Source: a virus
Length of the DNA: 26,392 nt
IMG/VR virus record: IMGVR_UViG_3300028559_000169
Location: 1 to 26,392 of that record
Strand: one strand, 5' to 3'
Each line of letters opens with the position of its first letter. The stretch's first letter is position 1. Position numbers and translations under genes: made by a program. This document shows positions 826 to 20,047 of this stretch, piece after piece. The notes below the pieces were generated by a model. The model did no database searches and was not told where the DNA came from. It worked only from the letters and a program-made list of their open reading frames with translations.

Positions 826-834
826 GTATTTATC
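826..834 (-). promoter_or_regulatory. T4-type late promoter box
   Basis: GATAAATAC on the minus strand, close to the T4 late consensus TATAAATA. It lies between the terminator at 858-886 and the fibre gene starting at 799, leaving a leader of about 20 nt. Confidence 0.7.
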
Positions 835-4551: not shown

Positions 4552-4560
4552 GTATTTATC
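4552..4560 (-). promoter_or_regulatory. T4-type late promoter box
   Basis: GATAAATAC on the minus strand, about 27 nt before the ATG at 4525, in the 83-nt gap after the gp16-like gene. Identical to the boxes at 826-834 and 7996-8004. Confidence 0.7.
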
Positions 4561-4608: not shown

Positions 4609-5091
4609 TCATTCATCGTTTTTAGAGGTAAACATCTTGAGTAACTCATTGCGATCTAGTGATTTACCTTCACCTAATGGAGTGGCCTCTACTTCCTCGT
4701 TCTTAGAAGCAAGTTTCATATCGAGTTGCGCTTTCTTAAGCTGTAAATCAAGTATCTTAAGTTTCTTGTTGATTTTTACAGTCTTAGCAGTGATGGCATG
4801 CCCTAACATTGTTCCGGCAGCAGAGAATATTTCACTAGAGAACCTAGCTTCAACTTGTAAACCCAAATCTTGCAGGTCTTTAAAGCTGTTGGTTGCTAGT
4901 TCTGCAAGAACATCTAATTCGTTATCCGCTTCTTCTAAATCTCGTACCAAAGGGAGCGCGGCTTCGATCTTTTCTAAATTGCTTAGTGCGGTTTCTGTTA
5001 CTTCACGGGTTGTTTCTGGCAATGGAATAGTGAGGTCATTCTCTTCTGATGATGCCAAATCAAATAATTCTTCTAGTTTTTTGTTGCTCAT
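4609..5091 (-). CDS. Probable small terminase subunit (T4 gp16-like)
   Basis: 160 residues, largely helical and charged. The acidic N-terminal tail (KLEELFDLASSEENDLTIPL) is followed by a long helical centre including LEEADNELDVLAELATNSF, VEARFSSEIFSAAGTMLGHA and KKLKILDLQLKKAQLDMKLA. An acidic tail, a central coiled-coil domain and a loose C-terminus match the layout and size of T4 gp16 (164 aa), which regulates the packaging motor and binds DNA. The assignment rests on this layout and on its position between gp4 and virion genes, not on a diagnostic motif. A head-assembly coiled-coil protein is the alternative. There is no ribosome site: the ATG follows a TAAATA box after only 5 nt, and an in-frame TAG lies five codons upstream, so no earlier start is possible. 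Confidence 0.55.
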   Translation of the reverse strand: MSNKKLEELFDLASSEENDLTIPLPETTREVTETALSNLEKIEAALPLVRDLEEADNELDVLAELATNSFKDLQDLGLQVEARFSSEIFSAAGTMLGHAITAKTVKINKKLKILDLQLKKAQLDMKLASKNEEVEATPLGEGKSLDRNELLKMFTSKNDE

Positions 5092-5095
5092 GTAA

Positions 5096-5104
5096 GTATT
5101 TAGC
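5096..5104 (-). promoter_or_regulatory. Late box 5 nt from the start codon (leaderless type)
   Basis: GCTAAATAC on the minus strand lies in the 12-nt gap between the gp4 stop (TAG, 5104-5106) and the ATG at 5091. Five bases separate TAAATA from the ATG. With T4 late promoter geometry (box at about -13 to -6) transcription would begin at the A of the ATG. Confidence 0.55.
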
Positions 5105-5538
5105 TACTTGCGCCCATTACGGTACAGATCATCTTCCGTAATTACACGAAAAGAGAAGCCGTTGGCCTTACAGTATGCGGCGCAGGCTGTCCATTTGGCA
5201 TGATTGATAGCCACGATCATTCTATCTTTTGCACTTGCTACTTTACTTTCAATAATACTCTGCTTTTTTGGTTTAATCTCTACTATTTCTGCTAGTGTTC
5301 GCCCGTGCTTGTTTTGGTATACCACAAAGAAATCTGGAACATATATAGTGGGTTTGCCACTGAGTGGGTGTTTATATGGAATTTTTATAGTTTCACTTGC
5401 CCAATGTAATATGTTATCGTTGCTGTCAAGAAATATCATCATCGACAATTCCCAAGAACTGCGATATCGTGGCGCCCGCTTTCCTATGTATTTCTCAGGA
5501 TGTTTAGGAGTATATAACCCCTGCGCCCACTTAGCCAT
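5104..5538 (-). CDS. 4: Head completion protein (T4 gp4-like)
   Basis: 144 residues, close to T4 gp4 (150 aa), which acts late in head maturation before tail joining. The conserved pattern is clear: MAKWAQGLYTPKHPEKYIGK at the start, then YRSSWELSMMIFLD, ASETIKIPYKHPLSGKPTIY, VPDFFVVYQNKHG and EIVEIKPKKQ. The residues E30 (in SSWE), D69 (in PDF) and E87-x-K89 (in VEIKPK) have the order and spacing of a PD-(D/E)xK nuclease centre, consistent with the predicted TnsA-like fold of this family. AGAGGAAAT precedes the ATG at a good distance. It lies 18 nt after the preceding gene with no box of its own, so it is co-transcribed with it. Confidence 0.85.
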   Translation of the reverse strand: MAKWAQGLYTPKHPEKYIGKRAPRYRSSWELSMMIFLDSNDNILHWASETIKIPYKHPLSGKPTIYVPDFFVVYQNKHGRTLAEIVEIKPKKQSIIESKVASAKDRMIVAINHAKWTACAAYCKANGFSFRVITEDDLYRNGRK

Positions 5539-5556
5539 ATTTCCTCTACTTTGTTC

Positions 5557-5913
5557 TTACAAGACGACGTTACGTTGTACTGCTTCGTTGGGTTTAGGCA
5601 AGTTGCCGACGCCATACAGTGAAGCCTTTGACTTGTACGTATTCAGATAGTAACAGATGATGCTATTCATTTGCAGCTTGTCATCGGCTCCTTTGATCGC
5701 TGCTAATAGATTTTGTACGTTATAATTTCCTTGCTGAGCGATTCTAAATAATATGCTAGCTAAATTAGACGCAATCTGTTCAGTAGCAGATACTCCCTTA
5801 AAATACGAGAAAACGATTTCATATTCCGCAGCAGGAATTTCTAGCTTTAAACTATAAAAGCTATCAAAGATTTGAATAGTCTGGTCGACTTGTTGTAATG
5901 ATGTTATTGTCAT
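5557..5913 (-). CDS. Small conserved T4-like protein
   Basis: 118 residues from ATG 5913 (MTITSLQQVDQTIQIFDSFY). An in-frame ATG exists at 5970, but it lies inside the upstream gene, has no ribosome site and would add a non-conserved leader, so 5913 is preferred. The C-terminal part (QMNSIICYYLNTYKSKASLY, then NLPKPNEAVQRNVVL) resembles a small conserved protein that I recall near tail genes of aquatic T4-like phages. No catalytic motif or membrane segment is visible. It lies between a tube-like gene and gp4. The late box CATAAATAT ends 5 nt before the ATG and no Shine-Dalgarno sequence is present, the same arrangement as the gp16-like gene. Confidence 0.7.
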   Translation of the reverse strand: MTITSLQQVDQTIQIFDSFYSLKLEIPAAEYEIVFSYFKGVSATEQIASNLASILFRIAQQGNYNVQNLLAAIKGADDKLQMNSIICYYLNTYKSKASLYGVGNLPKPNEAVQRNVVL

Positions 5914-5917
5914 GTTA

Positions 5918-5926
5918 ATATTTATG
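5918..5926 (-). promoter_or_regulatory. Late box 5 nt from the start codon (leaderless type)
   Basis: CATAAATAT on the minus strand fills the 19-nt gap between the stop of the tube-like gene (5933-5935) and the ATG at 5913. Five bases (TTAAC) separate the ATAAATA core from the start codon. Confidence 0.55.
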
Positions 5927-5932
5927 CTTAGA

Positions 5933-7285
5933 TTAAATAGTGAACACGTCGTCAAACGGGTCAGATGCATTACCGAATATATCAGGCTCGCCTGCTAAGG
6001 AAGTGCCGTCGAATTCCTGAAAATTGCCAAAATCATTAGATGCATCTTCCCAAGCCGGATCAACATCTCCGATAAACTCTGTTGTACTGCCATAATTTGG
6101 GTTACTATAGAACGGATCGTTGAATACCGGAGGAGGATTTCTTAACGCGTTTATCACTGGTGAATTCGCTAGGCCGTGCGGTCCCGGAGATGACCCAGCA
6201 GACGGAAAAGAGAATGGACTATTTCTGTTAGTAGGAGTATTTCTTTCTGAATCTCTGAGCATGACGTTCAACCCAGTGTCATGAGACACATTCAACCCCG
6301 GAAATTTTTCTGAATTATATGCGGTACCTGAGTTTAGAATATTGGTAGCGTATTCTTCTTGTATTGGGCTTTCGAGTGATCCGCCATCAGCGTATACTAA
6401 TCCACCGTTACCCAATGTCATCGAATTAGATCCTGGAGGAGTAATAGGACTGAGTTCTCTGTCATACGTAGCTGGATCTCCAAATCCAGTTACGATATTT
6501 TCTGGTTCTTGTCCGTCGATGTTTCCATAATTATATACTACTGTTTCATAGTCTATGGTCATAGAATTTTCCATGATGCCGTTGCCAATATCGTAGGAAT
6601 AAGTGTCATGGCTAAAATTAGTTATGATTGGATTAACTAACGTGTATGCTACAAAACTATGCTGGTTAAATCCGAAAACAGTAATATTCTTAAAGAAAGG
6701 AATTTTTCTTGGGGTTTTACTGTCCTGATTAGTCTGGCCGCCAGCAAAGCCCCAATTCTCATCACCTGCTATAGATGCGTTGTATAGATTACTTTGGTTG
6801 TAAGAATCATAAGCATTAGGGGACGATCCCCTGTCTCCCTCAAACATAGCACCAGACCTAGTACCATCATTGTAATAATAGGTGTAGTATGCTTCCCATA
6901 ACTTAGTCATCGTGCTCTTATTGTCGTCGTGAAATTTGATGTCAACTGAGTCATACTTGATTTTTGATTGTATAATTCTTTTTCTATTATACTGATTCAT
7001 CGTATGAGTCTGAAAAGTGTATGACGGAAGCTTAACTTCTTTCACCAACAATCCAAAGTTTGTAGAGGTGTCTAACGTGCCTAAATTAGACAGCGTATAC
7101 GGAATAGTTGCAGCTGGGTTTATATTAAAGTAAGTATGAAATAGGAATTTTAGTTTAGGTGCGTTCGCATAGGAATCTGACCTAAACGTTTTTGACGCGT
7201 GAGTAAAATCTCTGAGGTAAGCGTCGCCGCTCCCAAAAGAGCCAGCGACGCTATTTTGTAATATTTGTCCCCAATTACCTGACAT
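5933..7285 (-). CDS. Tail-tube-like protein (gp19/gp54-related family)
   Basis: 450 residues. AGGGG lies 7 nt before the ATG. The first 260 residues carry the pattern KLKFLFHTYFNINP, GLLVKEVKLPSYTFQTHTMN, QYNRKRIIQSKIKYDSVDIK and FHDDNKSTMTKLWEAYYTYY. From memory this is a conserved tube-domain family of aquatic T4-like phages, related to tail tube and baseplate-tube initiator proteins. The C-terminal 190 residues are Pro/Gly/Ser/Asn-rich and look disordered. It lies 23 nt after gp19 and is probably read from the gp19 promoter. A role as tube initiator, or as an additional tube protein at one end of the tail, is inference. Confidence 0.75.
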   Translation of the reverse strand: MSGNWGQILQNSVAGSFGSGDAYLRDFTHASKTFRSDSYANAPKLKFLFHTYFNINPAATIPYTLSNLGTLDTSTNFGLLVKEVKLPSYTFQTHTMNQYNRKRIIQSKIKYDSVDIKFHDDNKSTMTKLWEAYYTYYYNDGTRSGAMFEGDRGSSPNAYDSYNQSNLYNASIAGDENWGFAGGQTNQDSKTPRKIPFFKNITVFGFNQHSFVAYTLVNPIITNFSHDTYSYDIGNGIMENSMTIDYETVVYNYGNIDGQEPENIVTGFGDPATYDRELSPITPPGSNSMTLGNGGLVYADGGSLESPIQEEYATNILNSGTAYNSEKFPGLNVSHDTGLNVMLRDSERNTPTNRNSPFSFPSAGSSPGPHGLANSPVINALRNPPPVFNDPFYSNPNYGSTTEFIGDVDPAWEDASNDFGNFQEFDGTSLAGEPDIFGNASDPFDDVFTI

Positions 7286-7308
7286 CTGGTGCCCCTAAAA
7301 TTTAAAAA

Positions 7309-7965
7309 TTAGAGACCGACACCCTGAGAAGCACCGATGCCCGTTGCAGAACCAGTTGTACCGCTAAGAACACGACCAACGTTAGCACCAACACCAGATC
7401 CAAGCGGCGCTTGAATTGCATTGTCATAACGAAGTGTTAACTGAATCTGAACAGCGTCAGAAGTCGCATAGTTGAGAGTTTGATAGTTTACTTGTTGAAC
7501 AAAGCAACCATATAGTTCCCATGTTTCAAGTACAACCGGAGCATTGGCGCCGTTACCACCGTCGAGAATTTCGATGTTAGTTTGGAACTTGTAATCTTGA
7601 CCAGTTGCAGCAGATGCCTGCTCAACGAAGTCAAGTTGCTTCTGGAGCTGTTGCCCAACTGCTGCTGCAACAGTACCAGATGCATCGTCACGGATGGTGA
7701 CGCTTAGCGGCTGCCAAGTATGCTTGCCCGCAAGATATATTCTTGAGTTGTAAAGGTTCAATGTGACCTCATCGAACTGAACTTGTGGTCTTGCACATTC
7801 CATGACTTGCTTAGTTAGACTGAGACCTGAAGCGGCGCCAATACCAAAGTTCAAGAAATTAACTCTAAATCTGAACTGTAATTTCGGCATCAACAGGCCT
7901 TGATTGCCGCCAGCATTATCAGATGCTACGGTCATGTTGAACAAACTTTGGCTTGCTGTGGCCAT
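7309..7965 (-). CDS. 19: Tail tube protein (T4 gp19-like)
   Basis: 218 residues (T4 gp19 is 163). The N-terminal core shows PKLQFRFRVNFLNFG, LTKQVMECARPQVQFDEVTL, NLYNSRIYLAGKHTWQPLSV and TIRDDASG, then ETWELYGCFVQQVNYQTLNY and QIQLTLRYDNA near the C-terminus. This is the usual order of beta strands in the tube subunit, which polymerises inside the sheath and forms the DNA channel. The extra length is mostly a Gly/Ala/Ser-rich tail after LRYDNA. TAGGAGAT precedes the ATG. A late box lies at 7996-8004, and a strong hairpin separates the gene from the sheath gene upstream, so tube expression can be set independently of sheath. Confidence 0.9.
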   Translation of the reverse strand: MATASQSLFNMTVASDNAGGNQGLLMPKLQFRFRVNFLNFGIGAASGLSLTKQVMECARPQVQFDEVTLNLYNSRIYLAGKHTWQPLSVTIRDDASGTVAAAVGQQLQKQLDFVEQASAATGQDYKFQTNIEILDGGNGANAPVVLETWELYGCFVQQVNYQTLNYATSDAVQIQLTLRYDNAIQAPLGSGVGANVGRVLSGTTGSATGIGASQGVGL

Positions 7966-7995
7966 ATTATATCTCCTATTGTATGTTGTCTTAAT

Positions 7996-8004
7996 GTATT
8001 TATC
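7996..8004 (-). promoter_or_regulatory. T4-type late promoter box of the tail tube gene
   Basis: GATAAATAC on the minus strand, 31 nt before the gp19 ATG. It directly follows the hairpin at 8006-8036. Confidence 0.75.
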
Positions 8005-8005
8005 A

Positions 8006-8036
8006 ATGAAGTGAGTGATTTAGGCACTCACTTCAT
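8006..8036 (-). terminator. Intercistronic hairpin between sheath and tube genes
   Basis: A perfect inverted repeat has 12-bp arms ATGAAGTGAGTG (8006-8017) and CACTCACTTCAT (8025-8036) and a 7-nt loop. It lies 6 nt after the sheath stop and abuts the tube late box. It has no T-run, so it may be a weak terminator, a 3'-end stabiliser or a processing site rather than a classical terminator. Confidence 0.55.
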
Positions 8037-8042
8037 CAATGG

Positions 8043-11000
8043 TTAACTTATTTGCGATGTGTTATTCAATACTATTCCTGTTGATCCTGCTTGGTTCCCG
8101 ATTTCGCCCGTGTTGAAAATACGAACCGGAATGTAGATGAATTCAACTGCCTTGACAGGTTCAATCGCAACATCTACCCAGAGTTCATTTCTATCGATTC
8201 TTGCTGGGGTGTTATTAGATTCGTCACACACCACCAAATAGTCGTATACCCCTCTCTTAGCGACAAGATCAACTAGTAGAGTCTGTATAACACTACTGAT
8301 CTGGCTTCTTGTATAGGCGTCGTTTGGTTCAAATACAAAAGGTCTTGCTGCAATAGTCAACTGACGACGAAGATACGCAACGAGTCTTGCTACGTTAACT
8401 CTGTCGAGAGCCGACTGTGAGTTGAAGCTTGACTTGTTGCCGTAATTTAACAATCCATTGCCAGTAAAGAAGACGATTGGGTTGATCTGGTTAGTATATA
8501 GTACGTCACGGATACCAATTCTCGTCTTGATAGAAATAAATTCACCTGTAGTTGGGCTGATATAGCCGATACTACTTGCGTTGTCGATGGTGCCACGACG
8601 AGTACCAGCCGGAGCGAACCAAGGGTACGCAATCGCATCGTTTCTCAAGAAAGTTCTGATCATCATGTGTGATGGAGGAACTACAACCTGATTACCCTGT
8701 AGATCATTTGTAATACCTGAAGGGTAGAACAATCCAAGATAAGAGTTACGAGTAACAAGACCATCTTCGCCGGTTTCAGAAGCGTCAGCTGCGTTAGTTG
8801 CCCATGCTTGAATTGCGGTTGCAGAATCTGGAAGTCTCATTGGCGTATCACCGATGATAAATCCAGTTTCGCCCCTATCTGCATTGAGTACGATCATATT
8901 TGGTTGTAGTTCAGGATAGTTAGGTGCAGCGATCAGATTGAAGAAGTTGTCTTCGTCACGTATTGCTGTATTGCTATCAATCGCTGCTTTCATCGCCTTG
9001 ACTACCATTGCACGTTGTGCTTTACGACCCATATATGGGGCGCCGTTTGTTTGTAGTCCTGAATCACTGACCCATGCATCTTTTTCAGTAGGAAGAGATT
9101 CGCCGGGGAAATTATCATTGTTAAAGTAATTTGCTTTAAATTTCTTTACGTTATAGCCAGAACGTCGGGTGTTGAACAATAACATACCGACTGGGTATAG
9201 CGAGCTTTCAGGAGCATCAAGGTCGAGATAGTTGCTAGATAGTAAGCTTATGATGCTTGGGATAGGGTCGCTTGATGGATTTACCGTGCCGCTAGTTGCC
9301 CATCGTGCGTCAGCGAACAACACGCCAGTTGAACTTGTCTGATCTGAATTATTGATTAGTACCCAAGTAGCAGTTCCATCAACAACTTGCCAGCGGTTGA
9401 TAATCGGATAGTTATCTAGATCACTTGTGTCGATCCAAATGTCACCCGGAACTAAAGCAGTACCATCTGACTGTACAGTAGGTGCAGTTGGACTTACTAA
9501 TGGTCCTGCTGGATCAGTAGCGTTGACACCTGTAGGAATAGGGAAACCGCTGTTGTCGTAGTTAGATATCTTATATCCTCTCCAACCACTTGCGGTATTG
9601 ACCATGATATCAACTTCATCGATTACTGAATAGAACCAATTAGTATCATCTGCTGGGGCTTCAACTATAGCACCCTCATTAGCAGTCATATCAAACTCTA
9701 CCCAGTTTGACAATTGAGTCGAATACGTAGCAGGAGGAGATCCAGAGATATATGTTATTCCAGTCACAAATCCACCCGGATCGACTGAAGTAACTTCTAC
9801 TACTAGATCATTAGCTGGAGTAGTGCCACCAAACTGAGTTCCTGAGAAAGTTACCAGATTGCCAACAGTATAACCAGAACCCGGATTCACGAATGTGTCT
9901 GGGTCTACGTAATATAGTTGATAGTCGTTAATCACGTTCAATTCAAGGCCGGTACCGGGACCCGCATTTACCGAAGTAGCAGTAGGAGTAAACGTTCCCG
10001 TAGCGAACGGACCATACTTGACACCCGTAGTAGTATTGATGACTAATCCAATCGCAGCACTTAAGCCATTGCTTACCCCATCGATGTAATCGTTGATAAT
10101 GATCACCCCGCCTTCAGTGTGGGTAATTGCGATAGCGCCGGTGTCGGTGACTGATGCAGTCGTATAAGGAATGCCGGCAGCAGACCAAGCAGTCACAAAC
10201 CCAGTCGCAGTCGCGTTGTCTGGAACAGTCAATGTATACTCAGCACTTAACGATGAGCTTCCTGGAACCGACACTTGAACCTTTGACACATATGGTCCTG
10301 CTGTAAATGTAGGAGACGTATTAGTTCCGGTAACAGTCGTCGGCCCTTCTAAAAGTCGTTCCCAATAATAAACAGGTCCTTGAGTCTGTCCATCGTATGC
10401 ATACTGAGCATACACTGTTCCGGCGTTGATATTCTGTCCGCCAGTAGAATCGATTGCTGCTGTAACTGCCCAATCGCTATCAGCAACATTTACTGCTACT
10501 GGAACCCAAACAGAAGAAAGATTGTCCCACTGAGAGATTATCGGATCGAGTCCGTTGCCAGCGTTGCCGACCTTTAGCCAAACTGAACCAGTTGGGCGAG
10601 CATAAGTTTGTCCTGCTTGCCACAAAGGCTGTTGTGCAGATGTACCATATGTGAATCCGGGTTGATAATAAGTACCAGCAGCGATTCCTAGATCAGCCAG
10701 TACAGTGTCAGTAGGATCGACATCTGCTGTAATAGTCAACGAGAGTGGTGTCGTTGATGATGGACTTGCGCCAGCAGTTTGTTGTGAATAGATATTTAAT
10801 TTACCACTTACTACTTCTGCGCTGACATAAGTATAACCCAACGCATTGATTTGTGTTGCAATGTTTGCTACAGTGTTATTGGGGGATGAAGCAACCGTGA
10901 TAGAGATATCAACATCACCGTTAATGCTGATAACAAAGTTATCGCCCGCAGTGAGTGTTGGGTTAGCTTGTGTACCTTGAATAGTTGGCCATGAGTTCAA

Positions 11001-11663
11001 CCATGAACTGCTTCCTAAAACTACCCAAGTGTTAGAGTTATTTTTATAAAAATACTGACGAGCGGCAGGAGCACTAGGTGCCGCATAACTAGGAATAGCG
11101 ATTACTGCATAATCACCAATTTGACCTACGCTTTGCAACGGCGCGTTGCTTGAAATTAGAGCAGAATCGGTAATTACGATAGGCGTCACTACATTGAACT
11201 TGCCAGTCGTCGCGTCGAATTCATAAATGCCCCATGCAGTTTGAGTAGTGTCTAACCAATAGGTTCCATCAGCTGGATTACCAGAAGGGCGACCAGTTGA
11301 TCCAACAAGTGAAGCAAGGTCAACATCTGCTCTTAAGCAGTAAATAGTATTAGATGCACCTAATGCCGAATATGCTGCAAGAAGCCCGTATTCATTTAAT
11401 TCATACCCTTGAATCGACGTACCGTTCGAAGTAGTATAAAAAAATGGATTTCCGTATAAAGTAGTCAGGTCACGCTGACTAGTAACTCTGTACAACTTGC
11501 CAGCGTTAGCAGGAGTTGTCGCCGGTGCGATGCCTACCCCATTAGGGTCTGCTTTATTCGTTGCTGTTGCTAACACAACGAAGGGTATTGAATTTGTGGG
11601 TGCAGGGAGATACTGGGATTGATCAATGATCGTTACCTCGACGCCCGGTGAAACTAATGCCAT
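8043..11663 (-). CDS. 18: Tail sheath protein (T4 gp18-like), greatly enlarged
   Basis: 1206 residues against 659 in T4 gp18. The N-terminus (MALVSPGVEVTIIDQSQYLP... then IPFVVLATATNKADP, LNEYGLLAAYSALGASN) is the standard sheath start. The C-terminal part from about residue 785 is also standard: LYPVGMLLFNTRRSGYNVKK, LQPNMIVLNADRGETGF, SSIGYISPTTGEFISIKTR, INPIVFFTGNGLLNYGNKSS, RVNVARLVAYLRRQL, RPFVFEPNDAYTRSQI and a final EFIYIPVRIFNTGEIGNQAG. Between about 130 and 780 lies a Ser/Thr/Gly-rich beta insertion with DGTYWLDTTQTAWGIYEF- and GDIWIDTSDLDNYPIINRW-like segments. The frame is uninterrupted. A ribosome site (AAAGGAAAAAG) and a long leader with a late box lie upstream. The insertion probably decorates the outer sheath surface. 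Confidence 0.92.
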   Translation of the reverse strand: MALVSPGVEVTIIDQSQYLPAPTNSIPFVVLATATNKADPNGVGIAPATTPANAGKLYRVTSQRDLTTLYGNPFFYTTSNGTSIQGYELNEYGLLAAYSALGASNTIYCLRADVDLASLVGSTGRPSGNPADGTYWLDTTQTAWGIYEFDATTGKFNVVTPIVITDSALISSNAPLQSVGQIGDYAVIAIPSYAAPSAPAARQYFYKNNSNTWVVLGSSSWLNSWPTIQGTQANPTLTAGDNFVISINGDVDISITVASSPNNTVANIATQINALGYTYVSAEVVSGKLNIYSQQTAGASPSSTTPLSLTITADVDPTDTVLADLGIAAGTYYQPGFTYGTSAQQPLWQAGQTYARPTGSVWLKVGNAGNGLDPIISQWDNLSSVWVPVAVNVADSDWAVTAAIDSTGGQNINAGTVYAQYAYDGQTQGPVYYWERLLEGPTTVTGTNTSPTFTAGPYVSKVQVSVPGSSSLSAEYTLTVPDNATATGFVTAWSAAGIPYTTASVTDTGAIAITHTEGGVIIINDYIDGVSNGLSAAIGLVINTTTGVKYGPFATGTFTPTATSVNAGPGTGLELNVINDYQLYYVDPDTFVNPGSGYTVGNLVTFSGTQFGGTTPANDLVVEVTSVDPGGFVTGITYISGSPPATYSTQLSNWVEFDMTANEGAIVEAPADDTNWFYSVIDEVDIMVNTASGWRGYKISNYDNSGFPIPTGVNATDPAGPLVSPTAPTVQSDGTALVPGDIWIDTSDLDNYPIINRWQVVDGTATWVLINNSDQTSSTGVLFADARWATSGTVNPSSDPIPSIISLLSSNYLDLDAPESSLYPVGMLLFNTRRSGYNVKKFKANYFNNDNFPGESLPTEKDAWVSDSGLQTNGAPYMGRKAQRAMVVKAMKAAIDSNTAIRDEDNFFNLIAAPNYPELQPNMIVLNADRGETGFIIGDTPMRLPDSATAIQAWATNAADASETGEDGLVTRNSYLGLFYPSGITNDLQGNQVVVPPSHMMIRTFLRNDAIAYPWFAPAGTRRGTIDNASSIGYISPTTGEFISIKTRIGIRDVLYTNQINPIVFFTGNGLLNYGNKSSFNSQSALDRVNVARLVAYLRRQLTIAARPFVFEPNDAYTRSQISSVIQTLLVDLVAKRGVYDYLVVCDESNNTPARIDRNELWVDVAIEPVKAVEFIYIPVRIFNTGEIGNQAGSTGIVLNNTSQIS

Positions 11664-11704
11664 ATTCTTTTTCCTTTTGTAATATTCTAAGGTTTACCAC
11701 CTAC

Positions 11705-11721
11705 CCTAGTACTGTACTAAG
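11705..11721 (-). promoter_or_regulatory. Hairpin in the leader of the sheath gene
   Basis: On the minus strand CTTAGTAC and GTACTAGG flank a single A and form an 8-bp stem with one U-G wobble, of which the innermost pair must open to give a loop. It lies between the sheath late box and its ribosome site, about 40 nt before the ATG. It may stabilise or regulate the message; there is no T-run. Confidence 0.35.
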
Positions 11722-11731
11722 ATTCTAATAA

Positions 11732-11740
11732 TTATTTAGC
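11732..11740 (-). promoter_or_regulatory. Late promoter box of the sheath gene
   Basis: GCTAAATAA on the minus strand, about 69 nt before the sheath ATG. It is divergent from the plus-strand box at 11789-11794, so this 135-nt gap drives late transcription both ways. Confidence 0.6.
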
Positions 11741-11788
11741 AAAAGATATTAAAAAGTCGGCACAGGTGCGCCTTCGAAGAGATTTTAC

Positions 11789-11794
11789 TAAATA
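11789..11794 (+). promoter_or_regulatory. Late box 4 nt from a GTG start (leaderless type)
   Basis: TAAATA on the plus strand is followed by four bases (GTAC) and the GTG start at 11799. An in-frame TAG lies immediately before that TAC codon, which rules out any earlier start. Confidence 0.5.
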
Positions 11795-11798
11795 GTAC

Positions 11799-12155
11799 GT
11801 GAGCCAAAGACCATTTTGTAAAAAATGTAACAAAAATGCCTGTGCCATAAATTATACAAAAAACGGCATAGTGCATTATCGCACCCATTGTCATAGGTGT
11901 GGGAAAAAAGAACCTAATAAAAAAACTTTGCCAAATAAATGGGGACAGTCTGGCTATAAAAAAAAATCCACATGCGATTGCTGTGGATTCAAAAGTGCTT
12001 ATGCAAGCCAAATGACAGTGTATTATATAGACGGGAACTTAACCAACAACTCAGTGTCTAACCTCAAAACTATATGCCTCAATTGCGTCGAAGTTATAAA
12101 ACGTCGAGAGGTCAAATGGAAAAGAGGAGATTTGGTAGTAGACTGGCATACATAA
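11799..12155 (+). CDS. Zinc-ribbon protein with an HNH-like fold lacking catalytic histidines
   Basis: 118 residues with a GTG start fixed by an in-frame stop just upstream. Four CxxC pairs are visible: CKKC (8-11), CHRC (31-34), CDCC (59-62) and CLNC near residue 98. The C-terminal segment VYYIDGNLTNNSVSNLKTIC reads like the HNH pattern VHHIDGN..NN...NL...C..CH, but the histidines expected at the active site are tyrosine and valine here, so nuclease activity is unlikely. From memory, similar small proteins occur near tail genes of aquatic T4-like phages with no assigned function. It is read divergently from the sheath gene and converges on the dNMP kinase gene with a 4-nt gap. A structural or DNA-binding role is inference. 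Confidence 0.75.
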   Translation: MSQRPFCKKCNKNACAINYTKNGIVHYRTHCHRCGKKEPNKKTLPNKWGQSGYKKKSTCDCCGFKSAYASQMTVYYIDGNLTNNSVSNLKTICLNCVEVIKRREVKWKRGDLVVDWHT

Positions 12156-12159
12156 AATA

Positions 12160-12792
12160 TTACAATTGACTATTAAGCACAATAGCTTCTAGTTGTTTAT
12201 GTAATTCGGCTACAGTTTTGTTATTTGTTACATAGAAGTCATGTGATAGTCCTATGCTGCTATACTCACTCTCGTGTACGTTATAGTATTCTAGCTTCTC
12301 TAGGTACTCTATACTTCCAGTCCTGTTGTATAGTTCGGCATAAGGATACCATTCTGGATCGGGACCGCGTTGTATTCTCATCGTTACCCCGCCGGCATTC
12401 TTGATCGCAGCTAATTCATTCGGAAATCTGCAATCCGTAATAACAATATCGTCATTGAGGCGGCGCCGCAATTGGTTTTCGACTGACGCAACCCAAATAT
12501 CCATATGAAAACCCTTGCGACCTACTTCAGTGCCCCATTGCTGTAGGATATATCGTGGGGTAAGATTAGGAATTCCAAGACGATTGGCCCACCATTCATC
12601 AACTTGCTCTCGCCAGACGCGACTAAGGCTAGTCGTACCTTCAAGAAGTTCTCTGTCCCACCCAAACACCACTGAAATAGCGTCTTTCAACGTGCCAGCA
12701 AAACTCATGCGCTTGAAGCCATGGACAGTACAGAGACAGTCTGCGGCTGTGTCCTTACCCGATCCTATCAGACCCGTGATGCCTACTAACAT
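12160..12792 (-). CDS. 1: Deoxynucleoside monophosphate kinase (T4 gp1-like)
   Basis: 210 residues from ATG 12792, which AAGGAG precedes by 7 nt; an in-frame ATG at 12822 lies before that ribosome site and is rejected. The P-loop GLIGSGKDTAADCL occupies residues 7-20. Further family features are FAGTLKDAISVVFGWDRELL, a YILQQWGTEVGR segment, DDIVITDCRFPNELAAIKNA and a C-terminal HESE segment. The enzyme phosphorylates dNMPs to dNDPs for phage DNA synthesis in the host cytoplasm. It follows a small 65-residue gene by 36 nt and is probably transcribed with it from the early promoter at 13057-13085. Confidence 0.9.
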   Translation of the reverse strand: MLVGITGLIGSGKDTAADCLCTVHGFKRMSFAGTLKDAISVVFGWDRELLEGTTSLSRVWREQVDEWWANRLGIPNLTPRYILQQWGTEVGRKGFHMDIWVASVENQLRRRLNDDIVITDCRFPNELAAIKNAGGVTMRIQRGPDPEWYPYAELYNRTGSIEYLEKLEYYNVHESEYSSIGLSHDFYVTNNKTVAELHKQLEAIVLNSQL

Positions 12793-12828
12793 GTCATTCT
12801 CCTTTAAGTTTAAAGTTGTCAACCGTTG

Positions 12829-13026
12829 TTAGCGAGTACGCCGGGCGTCACGACCAAAATCGTGATAGCCTTCCCAGCCTTTTTGCCACTTTTCCCGTTG
12901 CTTATGATCATAAGCAGGATCACGTTGACGGCGGATAGATAGGATCTCAGCATCACACTCTGCACAAATACGATGATATTCTTGCAGTGCAGCATTTTTA
13001 CGCGATTGAAGTTCACGAATGCCCAT
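12829..13026 (-). CDS. Small charged helical protein
   Basis: 65 residues (MGIRELQSRKNAALQEYHRI...), rich in Arg, Lys and Glu and probably one long helix. It has a CAECD segment and an Arg-rich end. AAGGAAAAG stands 3-8 nt before the ATG and a near-consensus sigma70 promoter lies just upstream, which supports a real early gene. It precedes the dNMP kinase gene in the same direction. No family recognised. Confidence 0.7.
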   Translation of the reverse strand: MGIRELQSRKNAALQEYHRICAECDAEILSIRRQRDPAYDHKQREKWQKGWEGYHDFGRDARRTR

Positions 13027-13056
13027 TGAGCTTTTCCTTGCTTCTGTCTATAACTT

Positions 13057-13085
13057 AATATAGCAAAACGGGTGAATGATGTCAA
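13057..13085 (-). promoter_or_regulatory. Strong sigma70-type early promoter (copy A)
   Basis: On the minus strand TTGACA (13080-13085), a 17-bp spacer and TATATT (13057-13062). The spacer end ACCCGTTTTGC and the flanks match the promoter at 17470-17498 almost exactly. It drives the 65-residue gene and probably the dNMP kinase. Confidence 0.9.
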
Positions 13086-13094
13086 CCTAAATCG

Positions 13095-13244
13095 TTAAAA
13101 AACATCACCTAAAAGCACATCCATTTGGAGACTTTTGATTTCGTCTCGCATGTCTGCGATTTCTTCTGGAGTCATTGTCCTAGCAGCGATCTTCTTGTTG
13201 AGGGATTCAATGAGATTGAAGATAGTTTGTTTTTCGTCGGACAT
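13095..13244 (-). CDS. Small hypothetical protein (49 aa)
   Basis: Starts at ATG 13244 as MSDEKQTIFNLIESLNKKIA and ends LLGDVF. AAGGT lies just upstream, inside the end of the homing endonuclease gene, whose stop is 1 nt before this ATG, so the two are translationally linked. The sequence predicts two helices with a TMTPEEIADMRDEIKSL segment. The in-frame ATG further upstream (13310) lies inside the endonuclease gene and lacks a ribosome site. No family recognised. Confidence 0.6.
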   Translation of the reverse strand: MSDEKQTIFNLIESLNKKIAARTMTPEEIADMRDEIKSLQMDVLLGDVF

Positions 13245-13245
13245 A

Positions 13246-14082
13246 TTAACCTTGTACCTCTTTGTTGTAGTCTTCATAGAGTTGTTCTTTAGTTTTGTGA
13301 CAACCTGCACCCTTACTTGAGTTTTCTAACTTCGGTAACAACCTTAGATTGGTCCAATGCCCGATGATTTCGGGAGGGATATTGTTGACAAACCCTTCTG
13401 CTATGCTGTATATATGATCAAGATGCAGGTCCCTGCTTCTTTGTAGTCGCTCAGGGTTGATGGTATAGAAATGTTCGTACCAGTTTTTGTTGGTGATTAG
13501 CCTAACCGCAATGTAATATTCTTCCATAAGAGTTCTGTCTTTTGGATTCAGTGCCTGCCACTCTTTGTTTTTGTCCGACAGTTTTTGTTTTATAGAAGGA
13601 TGTTTAGATGGATTGTCTACTCCATACTTTTCCATCCAAGTTAACTTAGCCGCAGCAAGACTTGCTTCGTAGTCTCTGTTGCGGTCTTCCCATGGTTTGT
13701 GTTTGCCAGCACGAAAGCCCTCAGAGAACTTTGTATTCGCTTTTTTGGACTTTTTGGGATCCTTCTGTCGCCAGTGCTTCCCGGTTGTTGCTTTACTAAC
13801 GATTTCACCAATAGCAGTGTTTTTTGCTTCAACTGATGAGAATCTTCGGTAATCCTTTTCGTTCCATCTTAGAGGTTCTTTAGTTACAGGACATATCTCA
13901 ATAGAATAACGGTCGTTGATTATGTGCCAAACCCGCTGTTTGGGTTTGGCATCGTCTGGCAAGAAAGAGGTAGCCTTTAATATATCAGCCCAAAGTTTTG
14001 GGTGGGTGTTTTTCAGCATTTTAGTTGCTGATTTATTACGGGTAATATCTGCCTTTAGTATATCTACAAGTATGTGTTTCAT
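13246..14082 (-). CDS. HNH-type homing endonuclease, probably free-standing
   Basis: 278 residues. The central KYGVDNPSKHPSIKQKLSDK (152-171) is the helix-turn-helix-like DNA-binding motif found in many phage homing endonucleases. The C-terminal LHLDHIYSIAEGF (220-232) followed by WTNLRLLPKLENSSKG (243-258) is an HNH nuclease core, with the D222-H223 pair, N245 and N254 in the expected order. The basic middle (WRQKDPKKSKKANTK) probably binds DNA. No intron is apparent: the gene lies between the complete gp13-like gene and small genes, as free-standing mob or seg genes do in T4. The ATG follows a TAAATAC box after 5 nt without a ribosome site. It cuts DNA to spread its own gene between related phages. 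Confidence 0.85.
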   Translation of the reverse strand: MKHILVDILKADITRNKSATKMLKNTHPKLWADILKATSFLPDDAKPKQRVWHIINDRYSIEICPVTKEPLRWNEKDYRRFSSVEAKNTAIGEIVSKATTGKHWRQKDPKKSKKANTKFSEGFRAGKHKPWEDRNRDYEASLAAAKLTWMEKYGVDNPSKHPSIKQKLSDKNKEWQALNPKDRTLMEEYYIAVRLITNKNWYEHFYTINPERLQRSRDLHLDHIYSIAEGFVNNIPPEIIGHWTNLRLLPKLENSSKGAGCHKTKEQLYEDYNKEVQG

Positions 14083-14085
14083 ACT

Positions 14086-14094
14086 TGTATTTAG
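14086..14094 (-). promoter_or_regulatory. Late box 5 nt from the homing endonuclease start (leaderless type)
   Basis: CTAAATACA on the minus strand. CAAGT, five bases, separates TAAATA from the ATG at 14082. No Shine-Dalgarno sequence precedes this start. Confidence 0.5.
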
Positions 14095-14924: not shown

Positions 14925-14933
14925 TTATTTATC
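14925..14933 (-). promoter_or_regulatory. Late promoter box of the neck gene
   Basis: GATAAATAA on the minus strand, 18 nt before the ATG at 14906, leaving a short leader with a good ribosome site. Confidence 0.7.
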
Positions 14934-17469: not shown

Positions 17470-17498
17470 AATATAGCAAAACGGGTAATTGATGTCAA
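17470..17498 (-). promoter_or_regulatory. Strong sigma70-type early promoter (copy B)
   Basis: On the minus strand TTGACA (17493-17498), a 17-bp spacer and TATATT (17470-17475). It matches copy A at 13057-13085 in both hexamers and in most of the spacer and flanks. The -35 element contains the TGA stop (17495-17497) of the alanine-repeat gene. Confidence 0.9.
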
Positions 17499-18184
17499 CA
17501 CTTATTTTCGTATTCGGACAAAATAATGTTGATAAAGATTTCAGATAGGTCTGCACGAGCAGCAGCACGAGCATCATTAGCAGCATAAGCAGCAGCATCA
17601 GCAGCAGCAGCACGAGCAGCATCAGCAGCAGCACGAGCAGCAGCATCAGCAGCATAAGCAGCAGCACGAGCAGCATTAGCAGCAGCATAAGCAGCATAAG
17701 CAGCAGCACGAGCAGCATAAGCAGCAGCACGAGCAGCATTAGCAGCAGCACGAGCAGCATTAACAGCAGCATCAGCAGCAGCACGAGCAGCATTAGCAGC
17801 AGCACGAGCAGCATTAACAGCAGCATCAGCAGCATCGGCAGCAGCATCAGCAGCAGCATAAGCAGCATCGGTAGCAGCATAAGCAGCATCCAAATCACCA
17901 TTACCATTCAAGGCATCGATGACCTGTTGACATGCATCTTCTATTGTTTGCCAGTAATCAGGTAGAATAGTTGGTTGTACTTTTCTTGCGCTAGCAACTG
18001 CATATTCGATACATGCGATACGAAACTTGCATATCACCACGTCTGGGTCAATGGTATTCCAAGTAAACGAAGTTCTGTTGAACTTTTTCTTGAATTCTAC
18101 CGTATCGAAATGGCTTATCAGGTCGTTGAACTGCTCGGGTGGTTCACAAAGAACCGCCCACATCTCAGCTTGATGATCAAGCAT
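17495..18184 (-). CDS. Alanine heptad-repeat protein, resembling Imm5-like putative immunity proteins
   Basis: 229 residues from ATG 18184. Upstream in-frame ATGs fall inside the promoter and are rejected. The first 95 residues are ordinary sequence (MLDHQAEMWAVLCEPPEQFN... ending DACQQVIDALNGNGDLD). Then about 115 residues are nearly all alanine with polar residues at alternating spacings of 3 and 4, for example NAARAAANAARAAADAA, which is a seven-residue period. The order CIEYAV...P...IEDACQQVIDAL followed by Ala-rich helices resembles a family called Imm5-like putative immunity proteins; this is from memory and uncertain. A short normal tail (LSEIFINIILSEYENKC) follows, so the repeat is in frame and translated. 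It has an early promoter. Possible roles are a host-takeover or immunity-like factor, or a rod-like spacer. Confidence 0.65.
   Translation of the reverse strand: MLDHQAEMWAVLCEPPEQFNDLISHFDTVEFKKKFNRTSFTWNTIDPDVVICKFRIACIEYAVASARKVQPTILPDYWQTIEDACQQVIDALNGNGDLDAAYAATDAAYAAADAAADAADAAVNAARAAANAARAAADAAVNAARAAANAARAAAYAARAAAYAAYAAANAARAAAYAADAAARAAADAARAAAADAAAYAANDARAAARADLSEIFINIILSEYENKC
17551..17890. repeat. Imperfect 21-bp/3-bp tandem repeat within the alanine-repeat gene
   Basis: About 340 bp of GCA/AGC-type triplets interrupted at regular spacings, with a recurring 21-bp unit reading AGCAGCACGAGCAGCATTA plus two bases on the plus strand. The unit encodes the heptad NAARAAA on the minus strand. 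Such a tract can expand or contract by slippage in 21-bp steps without breaking the frame. Confidence 0.85.
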
Positions 18185-18212
18185 TGTACCGCCGTTTGTT
18201 TGTTTATGATTC

Positions 18213-18241
18213 AATATAACAACATGCATAACCATTGTCAA
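18213..18241 (-). promoter_or_regulatory. Sigma70-type early promoter of the alanine-repeat gene
   Basis: On the minus strand TTGACA (18236-18241), a 17-bp spacer and TATATT (18213-18218), 29 nt before the ATG at 18184. It is divergent from the plus-strand late box at 18254. Confidence 0.85.
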
Positions 18242-18253
18242 CCTTTTTCTTGC

Positions 18254-18262
18254 GATAAATAA
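18254..18262 (+). promoter_or_regulatory. Late promoter box of the plus-strand virion segment
   Basis: GATAAATAA on the plus strand, upstream of the gp14-like gene. It lies 12 bp from the -35 element of the divergent early promoter, so early and late transcription leave this gap in opposite directions. Confidence 0.7.
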
Positions 18263-18277
18263 TATAACAAGAAATGT

Positions 18278-20047
18278 TTGGTAGATGGCATAAAAATTGT
18301 TCTGTTAGATTGGAGGCCCAAAATTCCTAAACTTTCATTATACCGTCCTAATAAGCAAAATGATTATCGATTCTTCGACCGAACGATATCAGAGCAATTT
18401 ACTGTGGGTGGTACAGACTTGTACATTCATAAGTATGCAGGACCGCAAACAGGGCAGGCATCCATCGATTATACCCAGCCCGAGTATGATGTGCTTAACC
18501 CTACTAACATTCAGGACCTTCTCTTTTTAGAGAATAGAGATAGAGTGTACGACAAGAACATCTATCGCTTGCGTGGACATTATTCCGTTCAGAATCTTGA
18601 TTTTGACCTAAGCCAGTTCGGGTTGTTCCTAAACAATGATATCATTTTTGTCACCGTACACTACAATGACATGCTTGACATCATAGGTAGGAAACTTATG
18701 GTCGGTGACGTACTAGAACTACCGCACTTACTAGATTATAATCCGCTCAAAGAAACCATACCCACTGCATTGAAAAGGTTCTATCAGATAACTGATTCAA
18801 ACTATGCGAGTGAAGGGTTCTCGAACACTTGGTATCCGCATCTATGGCGTATCAAGTGTGAGCCTCTCGTTAACTCGCAAGAGTTTGCTGATATCCTCAA
18901 AGAACCAATCGAACAAGATAATTACCTTGGTGATTGGGACAAAGACAAAACTTATCCACCCGGATACACTATCGCATATGGTGATAAGATTTATGAATCG
19001 ATCAAAGATGTTCCCTCCGGACTCAATCCTCCTAATACTGAATATTGGAGACCTATTGACAACGGAAGTCTTTCTGATATCCTGTCAGCATACAATACGA
19101 ACATTTCAATCAATGATGCGGCGCTACAGGAAGCTGCTCGCCTCGTACCAAAATCTGGGTATGACGTAAGCAAATTATATGTGGTTCCAACATATGGAGA
19201 ATTTCAGGCAAATGGCATTCCTTCAGGAAAAATAAATCAGCCTGCTCCCCCTATCAATATCATAATTAGTGCTCCGGGAACAACTGTTCCTACAGGAACG
19301 GTTGTGTTCATGCGTAATCCTAAGTATAAAAACCCAAGCGCAGGAATTAAAATTTCTAAAGAAGCACTCAATAGTATCTGGGATATGACGGTTGACAGCG
19401 ATCATATATCAGATAAGATCGACAAGTTTGTTCAAGCAAGTTTACAAATAGTCGAAGAACGACCAGAGATGACAGACAGCGGATCTGGCTCAGTAGAGAC
19501 TACTAAAATGCTTTCGGTTCATTCATTGGGAATAGTTACCGGGCCATACGGCACTGCTGACAACACATACGCTACCGCTGATCAGAATCCAGAATTGCCT
19601 GGCTTTACCGGAACACAACCGTACGGTCCAGACACTATGGATTATCGTGCAGACTGCGATCCTAGATATCAATTTATCGCTCGACAAAGTCCAAGGTCAT
19701 TTGGATATCTAACTGGTTACTTGACTGGTGATGGGCAAGCTCCAAATGGTTATCCAACTGGTGCGGGAATATCATTTCCCCAAAATCCACAAGTAGGTGA
19801 CTACTTCTTACGAATTGACTACATGCCGCAGATTTTATATCGGTGGGACGGAGTTCTTTGGGTAAGAATTTCAGAAAATGTAAGAACCGAAACTGGATAT
19901 GGCTTAAACGACAAGTCACTGAAGTCGAGCTTTATTAATGACCAAGCTCAAATCTATCTAAATAACAGCGACACGTTTGTATCGGAAGCGCAACCGCTAT
20001 CGTCTATACTACAACCACCAAAACCAGTTCTTCCACCAAGAGTATAA
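18278..20047 (+). CDS. T4-like virion structural protein, possibly gp14-like neck protein
   Basis: Up to 589 residues. The core reads YRPNKQNDYRFFDRTISEQF, TVGGTDLYIHKYAGP, NIQDLLFLENRDRVYDKNIY, LRGHYSVQNLDFDLSQFGLF, DIIGRKLMVGDVLELPHLLD and EGFSNTWYPHLWRIKCEPL. From memory this is a conserved virion protein of aquatic T4-like phages; the GDVLELPH...RFYQI...LWRIK block resembles the beta domain of gp14 neck proteins. A chitin-binding-like insert lies near 216-262 (GDWDKDKTYPPGYTIAYGDK, then IYE..KDV, EYWRP). The C-terminus has GDYFLRIDYMPQILYRWDGV. The start is unclear: TTG 18278 is the first conventional codon but has a poor ribosome site, while TGGAGG (18311-18316) points to an in-frame ATT at 18323, giving 574 residues. 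gp15 follows after 1 nt. Confidence 0.8.
   Translation: MVDGIKIVLLDWRPKIPKLSLYRPNKQNDYRFFDRTISEQFTVGGTDLYIHKYAGPQTGQASIDYTQPEYDVLNPTNIQDLLFLENRDRVYDKNIYRLRGHYSVQNLDFDLSQFGLFLNNDIIFVTVHYNDMLDIIGRKLMVGDVLELPHLLDYNPLKETIPTALKRFYQITDSNYASEGFSNTWYPHLWRIKCEPLVNSQEFADILKEPIEQDNYLGDWDKDKTYPPGYTIAYGDKIYESIKDVPSGLNPPNTEYWRPIDNGSLSDILSAYNTNISINDAALQEAARLVPKSGYDVSKLYVVPTYGEFQANGIPSGKINQPAPPINIIISAPGTTVPTGTVVFMRNPKYKNPSAGIKISKEALNSIWDMTVDSDHISDKIDKFVQASLQIVEERPEMTDSGSGSVETTKMLSVHSLGIVTGPYGTADNTYATADQNPELPGFTGTQPYGPDTMDYRADCDPRYQFIARQSPRSFGYLTGYLTGDGQAPNGYPTGAGISFPQNPQVGDYFLRIDYMPQILYRWDGVLWVRISENVRTETGYGLNDKSLKSSFINDQAQIYLNNSDTFVSEAQPLSSILQPPKPVLPPRV
18311..18325 (+). promoter_or_regulatory. Ribosome site pointing to an ATT start codon
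   Basis: TGGAGG at 18311-18316 is followed by six bases (CCCAAA) and ATT at 18323, in frame with the virion protein. No ATG, GTG or TTG lies at that distance in this frame. The conserved part of the protein begins a few residues later (PKLSLYRP). Confidence 0.5.

Follow-up and report, generated by a model that had tools for sequence, protein, structure and literature searches.

A fixed 4–5-nt spacing between T4-type late boxes and start codons predicts a leaderless class of late mRNAs in a clade of uncultured giant phages

How is a late phage gene translated when its promoter-like box ends 4 or 5 nt before the start codon and leaves no Shine-Dalgarno (SD) sequence? The question arises in an entire IMG/VR contig, IMGVR_UViG_3300028559_000169 (26,392 bp, hereafter the window), for which a preliminary description had named four such genes and predicted leaderless late transcripts. 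The window belongs to a clade of giant freshwater phages that is widespread and uncultured; one of its marker genes has more than 580 relatives in IMG/VR. Judged by the sheath-stabilizer protein, the uncultured genomes G001, G004, G007, G008, G009 and G010 are 71–77% identical, and among cultured phages the closest are of the jumbo type (Atu_ph07 and Phosso, 34%; PA5oct, 31%; SCTP-2, 30%); a quick tree groups the six uncultured genomes together, apart from the cultured phages. A search for the host by homology, using a profile of the 160-aa protein described below against genome contigs, returned no relative.

Three of the four genes lie on the minus strand, each with a gap of 5 nt. The box CTAAATA at 5097..5103 (TAAATA, 5102–5097) is followed by CTTAC and by ATG 5091 of a 160-aa gene (4609..5091); ATAAATA at 5919..5925 (TAAATA, 5924–5919) by TTAAC and ATG 5913 of a 118-aa gene (5557..5913); and CTAAATA at 14088..14094 (TAAATA, 14093–14088) by CAAGT and ATG 14082 of a 278-aa homing-endonuclease gene (13246..14082). 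On the plus strand, CTAAATA at 11788..11794 (TAAATA, 11789–11794) precedes GTAC, a gap of 4 nt, and GTG 11799 of a 118-aa zinc-ribbon or HNH-like gene (11799..12155), whose upstream neighbour, the sheath gene, is on the opposite strand. All four boxes and spacings are thus as first described, as are the in-frame stops said to preclude earlier starts in two of the genes: a TAG lies 15 nt upstream of ATG 5091, and another, formed inside the box and spacer, lies 6 nt upstream of GTG 11799. The name 'gp16-like' (terminase small subunit) given to the 160-aa gene finds no support in Pfam or PHROGs; the gene belongs to PHROG 16202, of unknown function. The homing endonuclease has an in-frame TAA 36 nt upstream without a start codon in between, and only the frame of the 118-aa gene is open further upstream (ATG 5970), where homologues place the conserved start at 5913. 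By resampling of the 40 nt upstream of the 21 window gene starts, [AC]TAAATA at 4–5 nt was expected at a mean of 0.05 starts and reached four or more in 0 of 20,000 resamplings; it is found at 4 of the 21. TAAATA is not enriched in bulk in the window (17 seen, 24 expected), so the non-randomness resides in placement.

None of the four genes has a useful anti-SD match, in keeping with the preliminary description, and their neighbours have one. The best anti-SD duplexes at −20 to −5 reach −0.8 (160-aa gene), −0.5 (118-aa gene), −2.7 (zinc-ribbon gene) and −3.2 kcal/mol (homing endonuclease), against −5.2 to −7.3 kcal/mol for the leadered window genes (208-aa, gp19, gp13-like, gp4, gp18, 991-aa and 450-aa). 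The late genes already credited with normal leaders and ribosome sites do have an SD and a distant box, all on the minus strand: the 208-aa gene (ATAAATA, 4553..4559; SD TTAGAGGTC; leadered in 7/7 genomes), the gp19 tail-tube gene (ATAAATA, 7997..8003; SD AGGAGA) and the gp13-like gene (ATAAATA, 14926..14932; SD GAGGG; leadered in 8/8 genomes). A further leadered gene on this strand has ATAAATA at 827..833, an ATG 27 nt downstream and a weak SD (GAGAG), and the leadered sheath gene gp18 has a late-type box, CTAAATA at 11733..11739 (minus strand), about 70 nt upstream, with SD AAAAGGAA.

The same two arrangements recur throughout the clade. Counting ATG-started ORFs of at least 60 aa downstream of 726 [AC]TAAATA boxes in 1.15 Mb, with ORFs called mechanically and some boxes being chance occurrences, we found 34 boxes at 4 nt and 77 at 5 nt (111/726 at 4–5 nt), 32 over the whole range of 6–13 nt and 205 at 14–40 nt. 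The spacing is bimodal: a sharp class at 4–5 nt is followed, from about 16 nt on, by a broad peak of SD-bearing genes; the control [GT]TAAATA gave 4, 14 and 64 over these three ranges. Gaps in G007, a more distant relative (L063–L068), are 4–7 nt, that is, predicted leaders of 0–2 nt. Once dereplicated, the set comprised 97 leaderless-class and 155 leadered genes. An SD with an anti-SD energy of −4 or stronger occurred in 9% of the leaderless class, compared with 65% of leadered genes and 10% of random positions (p = 8e-22), and the ribosome site is thus missing in relatives as well. ATG is strongly preferred as start codon among the 97 (93 ATG, 2 GTG and 2 TTG), a trait of leaderless mRNAs; the zinc-ribbon gene of the window is one of the GTG cases.

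The same box in cultured phages gives a different picture. In T4, syn9, Atu_ph07, PA5oct, RaK2, Phosso and Vibrio 2.275.O (1.58 Mb, 736 boxes), only 4/736 boxes were at 4–5 nt and 248/736 at 14–40 nt; the odds ratio between clade and cultured phages at 4–5 nt is 33, with a p value (1e-30) that is indicative only, the sequences being related. The leaderless class is a feature of this clade and not a general T4 property, being essentially absent in T4 and in most cultured relatives sampled. T4 itself was rejected as support for the 5-nt class, since the sole [AC]-box example among its four cases lies inside mobB, and a general jumbo-phage trait is ruled out by AR9, with late leaders of 26–491 nt (PMC5312081). 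The clade spacing has a shape like that of leader lengths in Lactococcus cremoris, a bacterium with true leaderless mRNAs, where measurement found no leaders of 4–14 nt (PMC10986495).

Conservation of the spacing extends to homologues of all four window genes. For the 160-aa gene, TAAATA plus 4–5 nt plus ATG is present in 37–38 of 41 homologous viral loci; where the start is shifted by one or two codons (L004–L006 and L007), the box is shifted along with it, and the exceptions include two loci (L012 and L040) with an SD instead of the adjoining box. Among distinct homologues, the gap is 5 nt in 20/21 for the 118-aa gene and in 10/10 for the homing endonuclease, and 4–5 nt in 6/8 for the zinc-ribbon gene and in 9/9 for the MSHR family (found in G001, MSHRICCYTLFN...). 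PHROG 11591, annotated 'virion structural protein', has the leaderless gap without an SD in 42/44 distinct homologues. Upstream DNA has diverged among the homologues of the families that keep the spacing.

These comparisons bear on the objection that starts are mis-called, the ATG behind the box being a chance occurrence and the real starts, with leaders of the usual kind, lying further downstream. We found nothing for it, although the open upstream frame of the 118-aa gene illustrates that start calls can be ambiguous, and we regard it as exceedingly improbable: in every family conservation sets in at the ATG that follows the box, the frame is closed upstream by in-frame stops in three of the four window genes, the number of such sites in the window far exceeds its chance expectation, and annotators of SCTP-2 and PA5oct independently chose equivalent starts. 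The 200 kb of Salicola phage SCTP-2 contain six [AC]-box genes with a gap of exactly 5 nt, against a background of 0.45 per position (P ~8e-6), and for genes 25, 232, 271, 308, 366 and 462 the annotated start is 5 nt after ATAAATA. PA5oct gp262, a protein detected in virions by MS, likewise starts, at 144985, 5 nt downstream of ATAAATA, and the gene upstream of it is divergent; PA5oct alone has 4 cases at 5 nt, which is suggestive only (P ~0.006). A GIY-YIG-like endonuclease is among the SCTP-2 and PA5oct genes that begin 5 nt after ATAAATA.

Whether a gene is leadered or leaderless is largely a property of the gene. Orthologue pairs were leadered in both genomes in 170 cases, leaderless in both in 133 and discordant in 25 (303 concordant), and of the 50 families common to at least two genomes, 24 were purely leadered, 16 were purely leaderless and 10 held both kinds. 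The gp19 tube, the gp13-like adaptor, the 208-aa gene and a large family of virion and fibre-like proteins were always leadered; the 160-aa gene, zinc-ribbon proteins, the homing endonuclease, PHROG 11591 and several late proteins of 300–1000 aa were mostly or always leaderless. From this division, SD leaders seem to be retained for the virion proteins of highest abundance. The two translation classes that had been proposed among the late genes of the window are borne out by the bimodal spacing, the SD contrast and the retention of class among orthologues.

What the box itself does can be judged from T4, in which the late box spans −13 to −6. T4-type late promoters, dependent on gp55/gp33/gp45, carry TATAAATA in T4 and NATAAATA in cyanophages (PMC2988020, PMC7892883, PMC2984593), and the T4 box lies about one helical turn upstream of +1 (PMC2988020). 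In the clade, [AC]TAAATA near late genes is a TATAAATA-like −10 box. T4-type late promoters have no conserved −35 element; in the clade, the stretch covered, from −20 to −9 as counted from the end of the box and thus short of the −35 region, gave no signal. A gp55-family sigma factor (PHROG 234, E 1e-21 to 1e-24) was found in seven of the larger clade records searched (G001, G004, G009, G010, G011, G012 and G014), the window contig being too short to hold one, and a gp55-type sigma is also present in all cultured comparators searched, T4 included. The clade resembles T4-type late promoters in its −10-like box, in its gp55-family sigma and in the position of boxes upstream of virion genes; it differs in the 4–5-nt class, the box in cultured phages being mostly 14–40 nt from the start.

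The fixed distance to the AUG might instead mark TAAATA, at −11 to −6, as an AU-rich translation-initiation element (S1 binding or Kozak-like) and not a promoter, and Bacteroidota do use A-rich upstream signals in place of an SD. We consider this highly improbable, because late genes that do have an SD carry the same 7-mer, likewise restricted to A or C at its first base, 16–40 nt upstream, and because the proximal class is missing from cultured phages that share the box. Leadered genes use a canonical SD, so the host anti-SD works, and the 7-mer has the T4 late-promoter sequence (PMC2984593).

A promoter reading gives the following picture, which we hold to be very probably correct on the strength of the sequences compared here. 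Host RNA polymerase with the phage gp55-family sigma would recognize [AC]TAAATA as the −10-like element of a T4-type late promoter. In one late class, with the box fixed 4–5 bp from the start codon, transcription would begin on the A (or G) of that codon and yield true leaderless mRNAs, whose 5′ ends we infer from the position of the box; in gap-4 genes the transcription start would have to be one base nearer the box. The host ribosome would then start on these mRNAs without an SD, as on other bacterial leaderless mRNAs. In the second class (tail tube, sheath, gp13-like and most large virion proteins), the same promoter would act from further upstream and an SD would serve initiation. In this way, about 40% of box-driven late genes would most likely give leaderless mRNAs. 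The base before ATG at a gap of 5 nt is C or T in 88% of cases versus 67% in leadered genes (p = 1.6e-4), a pyrimidine bias to be expected of transcription that begins on the A of ATG (the usual −1Y/+1A initiator). Like the leaderless mRNAs of bacteria and phages (lambda cI, mycobacteria, Lactococcus), those predicted for the clade have no SD, a forbidden short-leader range and an AUG at the 5′ end (PMC9031893, PMC10986495). The leaderless class likely sets a lower or differently regulated level of expression, and the arrangement likely lets a gene carry its own promoter in about 12 bp.

The mRNA could also arrive from upstream as a polycistronic transcript, translated by coupling or 70S scanning, with the adjoining box a secondary promoter whose exact spacing is irrelevant. 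For 40 of the 97 leaderless-class genes, an upstream gene of the same orientation is no more than 30 nt away, so read-through RNAs may exist too, and the box of the 160-aa gene abuts the stop codon of the gene upstream. Such transcripts are nevertheless very unlikely to account for the class, given that the spacing is locked at 4–5 nt and depleted at 6–13 nt, that the upstream gene is on the opposite strand in 30/97 and that a terminator-like hairpin lies directly upstream in all 9 distinct MSHR homologues. In total, 35/97 (about a third) follow an opposite-strand gene or a terminator-like hairpin, and upstream operon mRNA cannot supply them.

The homing endonuclease adds a further point against read-through. 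A hairpin, CAAGTATG-AAACA-CATACTTG (14067..14087, minus strand), straddles its AUG, and TAAATACAAGTATGA...CATACTTG is invariant in ten homologues (L216–L231). Folded as part of a longer RNA, the AUG lies within an 8–10-bp stem (−26.9 kcal/mol in the window, z = −4.6); in an RNA beginning at the AUG the stem is gone (−2.4 kcal/mol, z = +1.0). With transcription starting at the A of ATG, the 5′ arm is missing and the AUG free, so the hairpin would sequester the AUG in read-through RNA and not in leaderless late RNA. Its invariance could alternatively reflect the endonuclease's own DNA target. In T4 e, soc, 49 and I-TevI and in Aeh1 mobE, a late promoter lies within a hairpin that sequesters the ribosome site (PMC3014915). 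The homing endonuclease matches the I-TevI/mobE type at the sequence level, with a sequestered start in the long RNA and, in or next to the hairpin, a late promoter whose use would remove it. It differs in that the freed start of T4 and Aeh1 keeps an SD, whereas in the present gene the AUG itself is inside the hairpin and would be the first codon of the late RNA, with no SD.

PHROG 11591 shows what accompanies a loss of the spacing. In the window, the late box ATAAATA and the gene together span 18255..20047 on the plus strand. The codon at the orthologous start, 18323, is ATT; GGAGG stands before it, and the box is some 60 nt upstream. The gene may instead start at TTG 18278. In G004 there is no ATG, GTG or TTG from the in-frame stop to the orthologous start, an ATT after AAGGAG. 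From these two genomes, the leaderless spacing appears to have been lost together with the gain of an SD. The apparent ATT start with a strong SD is seen at 18255–18340 (plus strand) of the window and around 15951 of locus L053, nearly all relatives having a leaderless ATG.

Translation factors were compared across the same phages. Leaderless mRNA is translated by 70S ribosomes, and high IF3 inhibits this (PMC9031893); IF3 inhibits AUU initiation as well. Atu_ph07, RaK2, Vibrio 2.275.O, Phosso and Kaldavass encode an IF3, and none has a leaderless peak; no IF3 gene was found in the sampled clade genomes (G001, G004 and G009–G014) or in SCTP-2. The pattern is suggestive, with the clade counting as roughly one evolutionary event. 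It hints at a two-tier late translation, which we advance tentatively and think unlikely as it stands: during gp55-driven late transcription, a low-IF3 (or 70S-initiating) cell would translate leaderless and AUU-start mRNAs efficiently, and spacing would act as a translational switch for dozens of genes. A phage-encoded S1-domain protein, linked to missing SDs in some huge phages (PMC7162821), was absent in all ten genomes searched and was rejected as an explanation, as was bS21, which occurs only in G007, PA5oct and Atu_ph07 and does not correlate with the class.

To our knowledge, leaderless cases in phages are single regulatory genes or the middle and late genes of Thermus phage phiYS40, and we found no report in the open-access literature of a leaderless class under T4-type late promoters. 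If the predicted starts are true, a whole late-gene class of an abundant clade uses leaderless initiation under such promoters, a combination of singly known ingredients that did not turn up in T4, in cyanophages or in most of the cultured jumbo phages sampled. Promoter-to-AUG spacing would become a readable code for translation mode, making transcript 5′ ends of uncultured phages predictable from sequence and correcting gene starts that SD-based callers may miss. In the clade one could also study, in a natural system, under which conditions and for what reasons bacterial ribosomes prefer leaderless mRNAs, and whether IF3 is adjusted by phages for that purpose.

Two minor features were recorded. 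A terminator-like hairpin and T-run ending right before a late box accompany a conserved 145–147-aa gene (L159:4780-4848; L235–L252). In the window, a 248-aa ORF (17495–18241, minus strand) encodes a long alanine-rich repeat (AADAARAAA...) from tandem GCA/GCT-type repeats.
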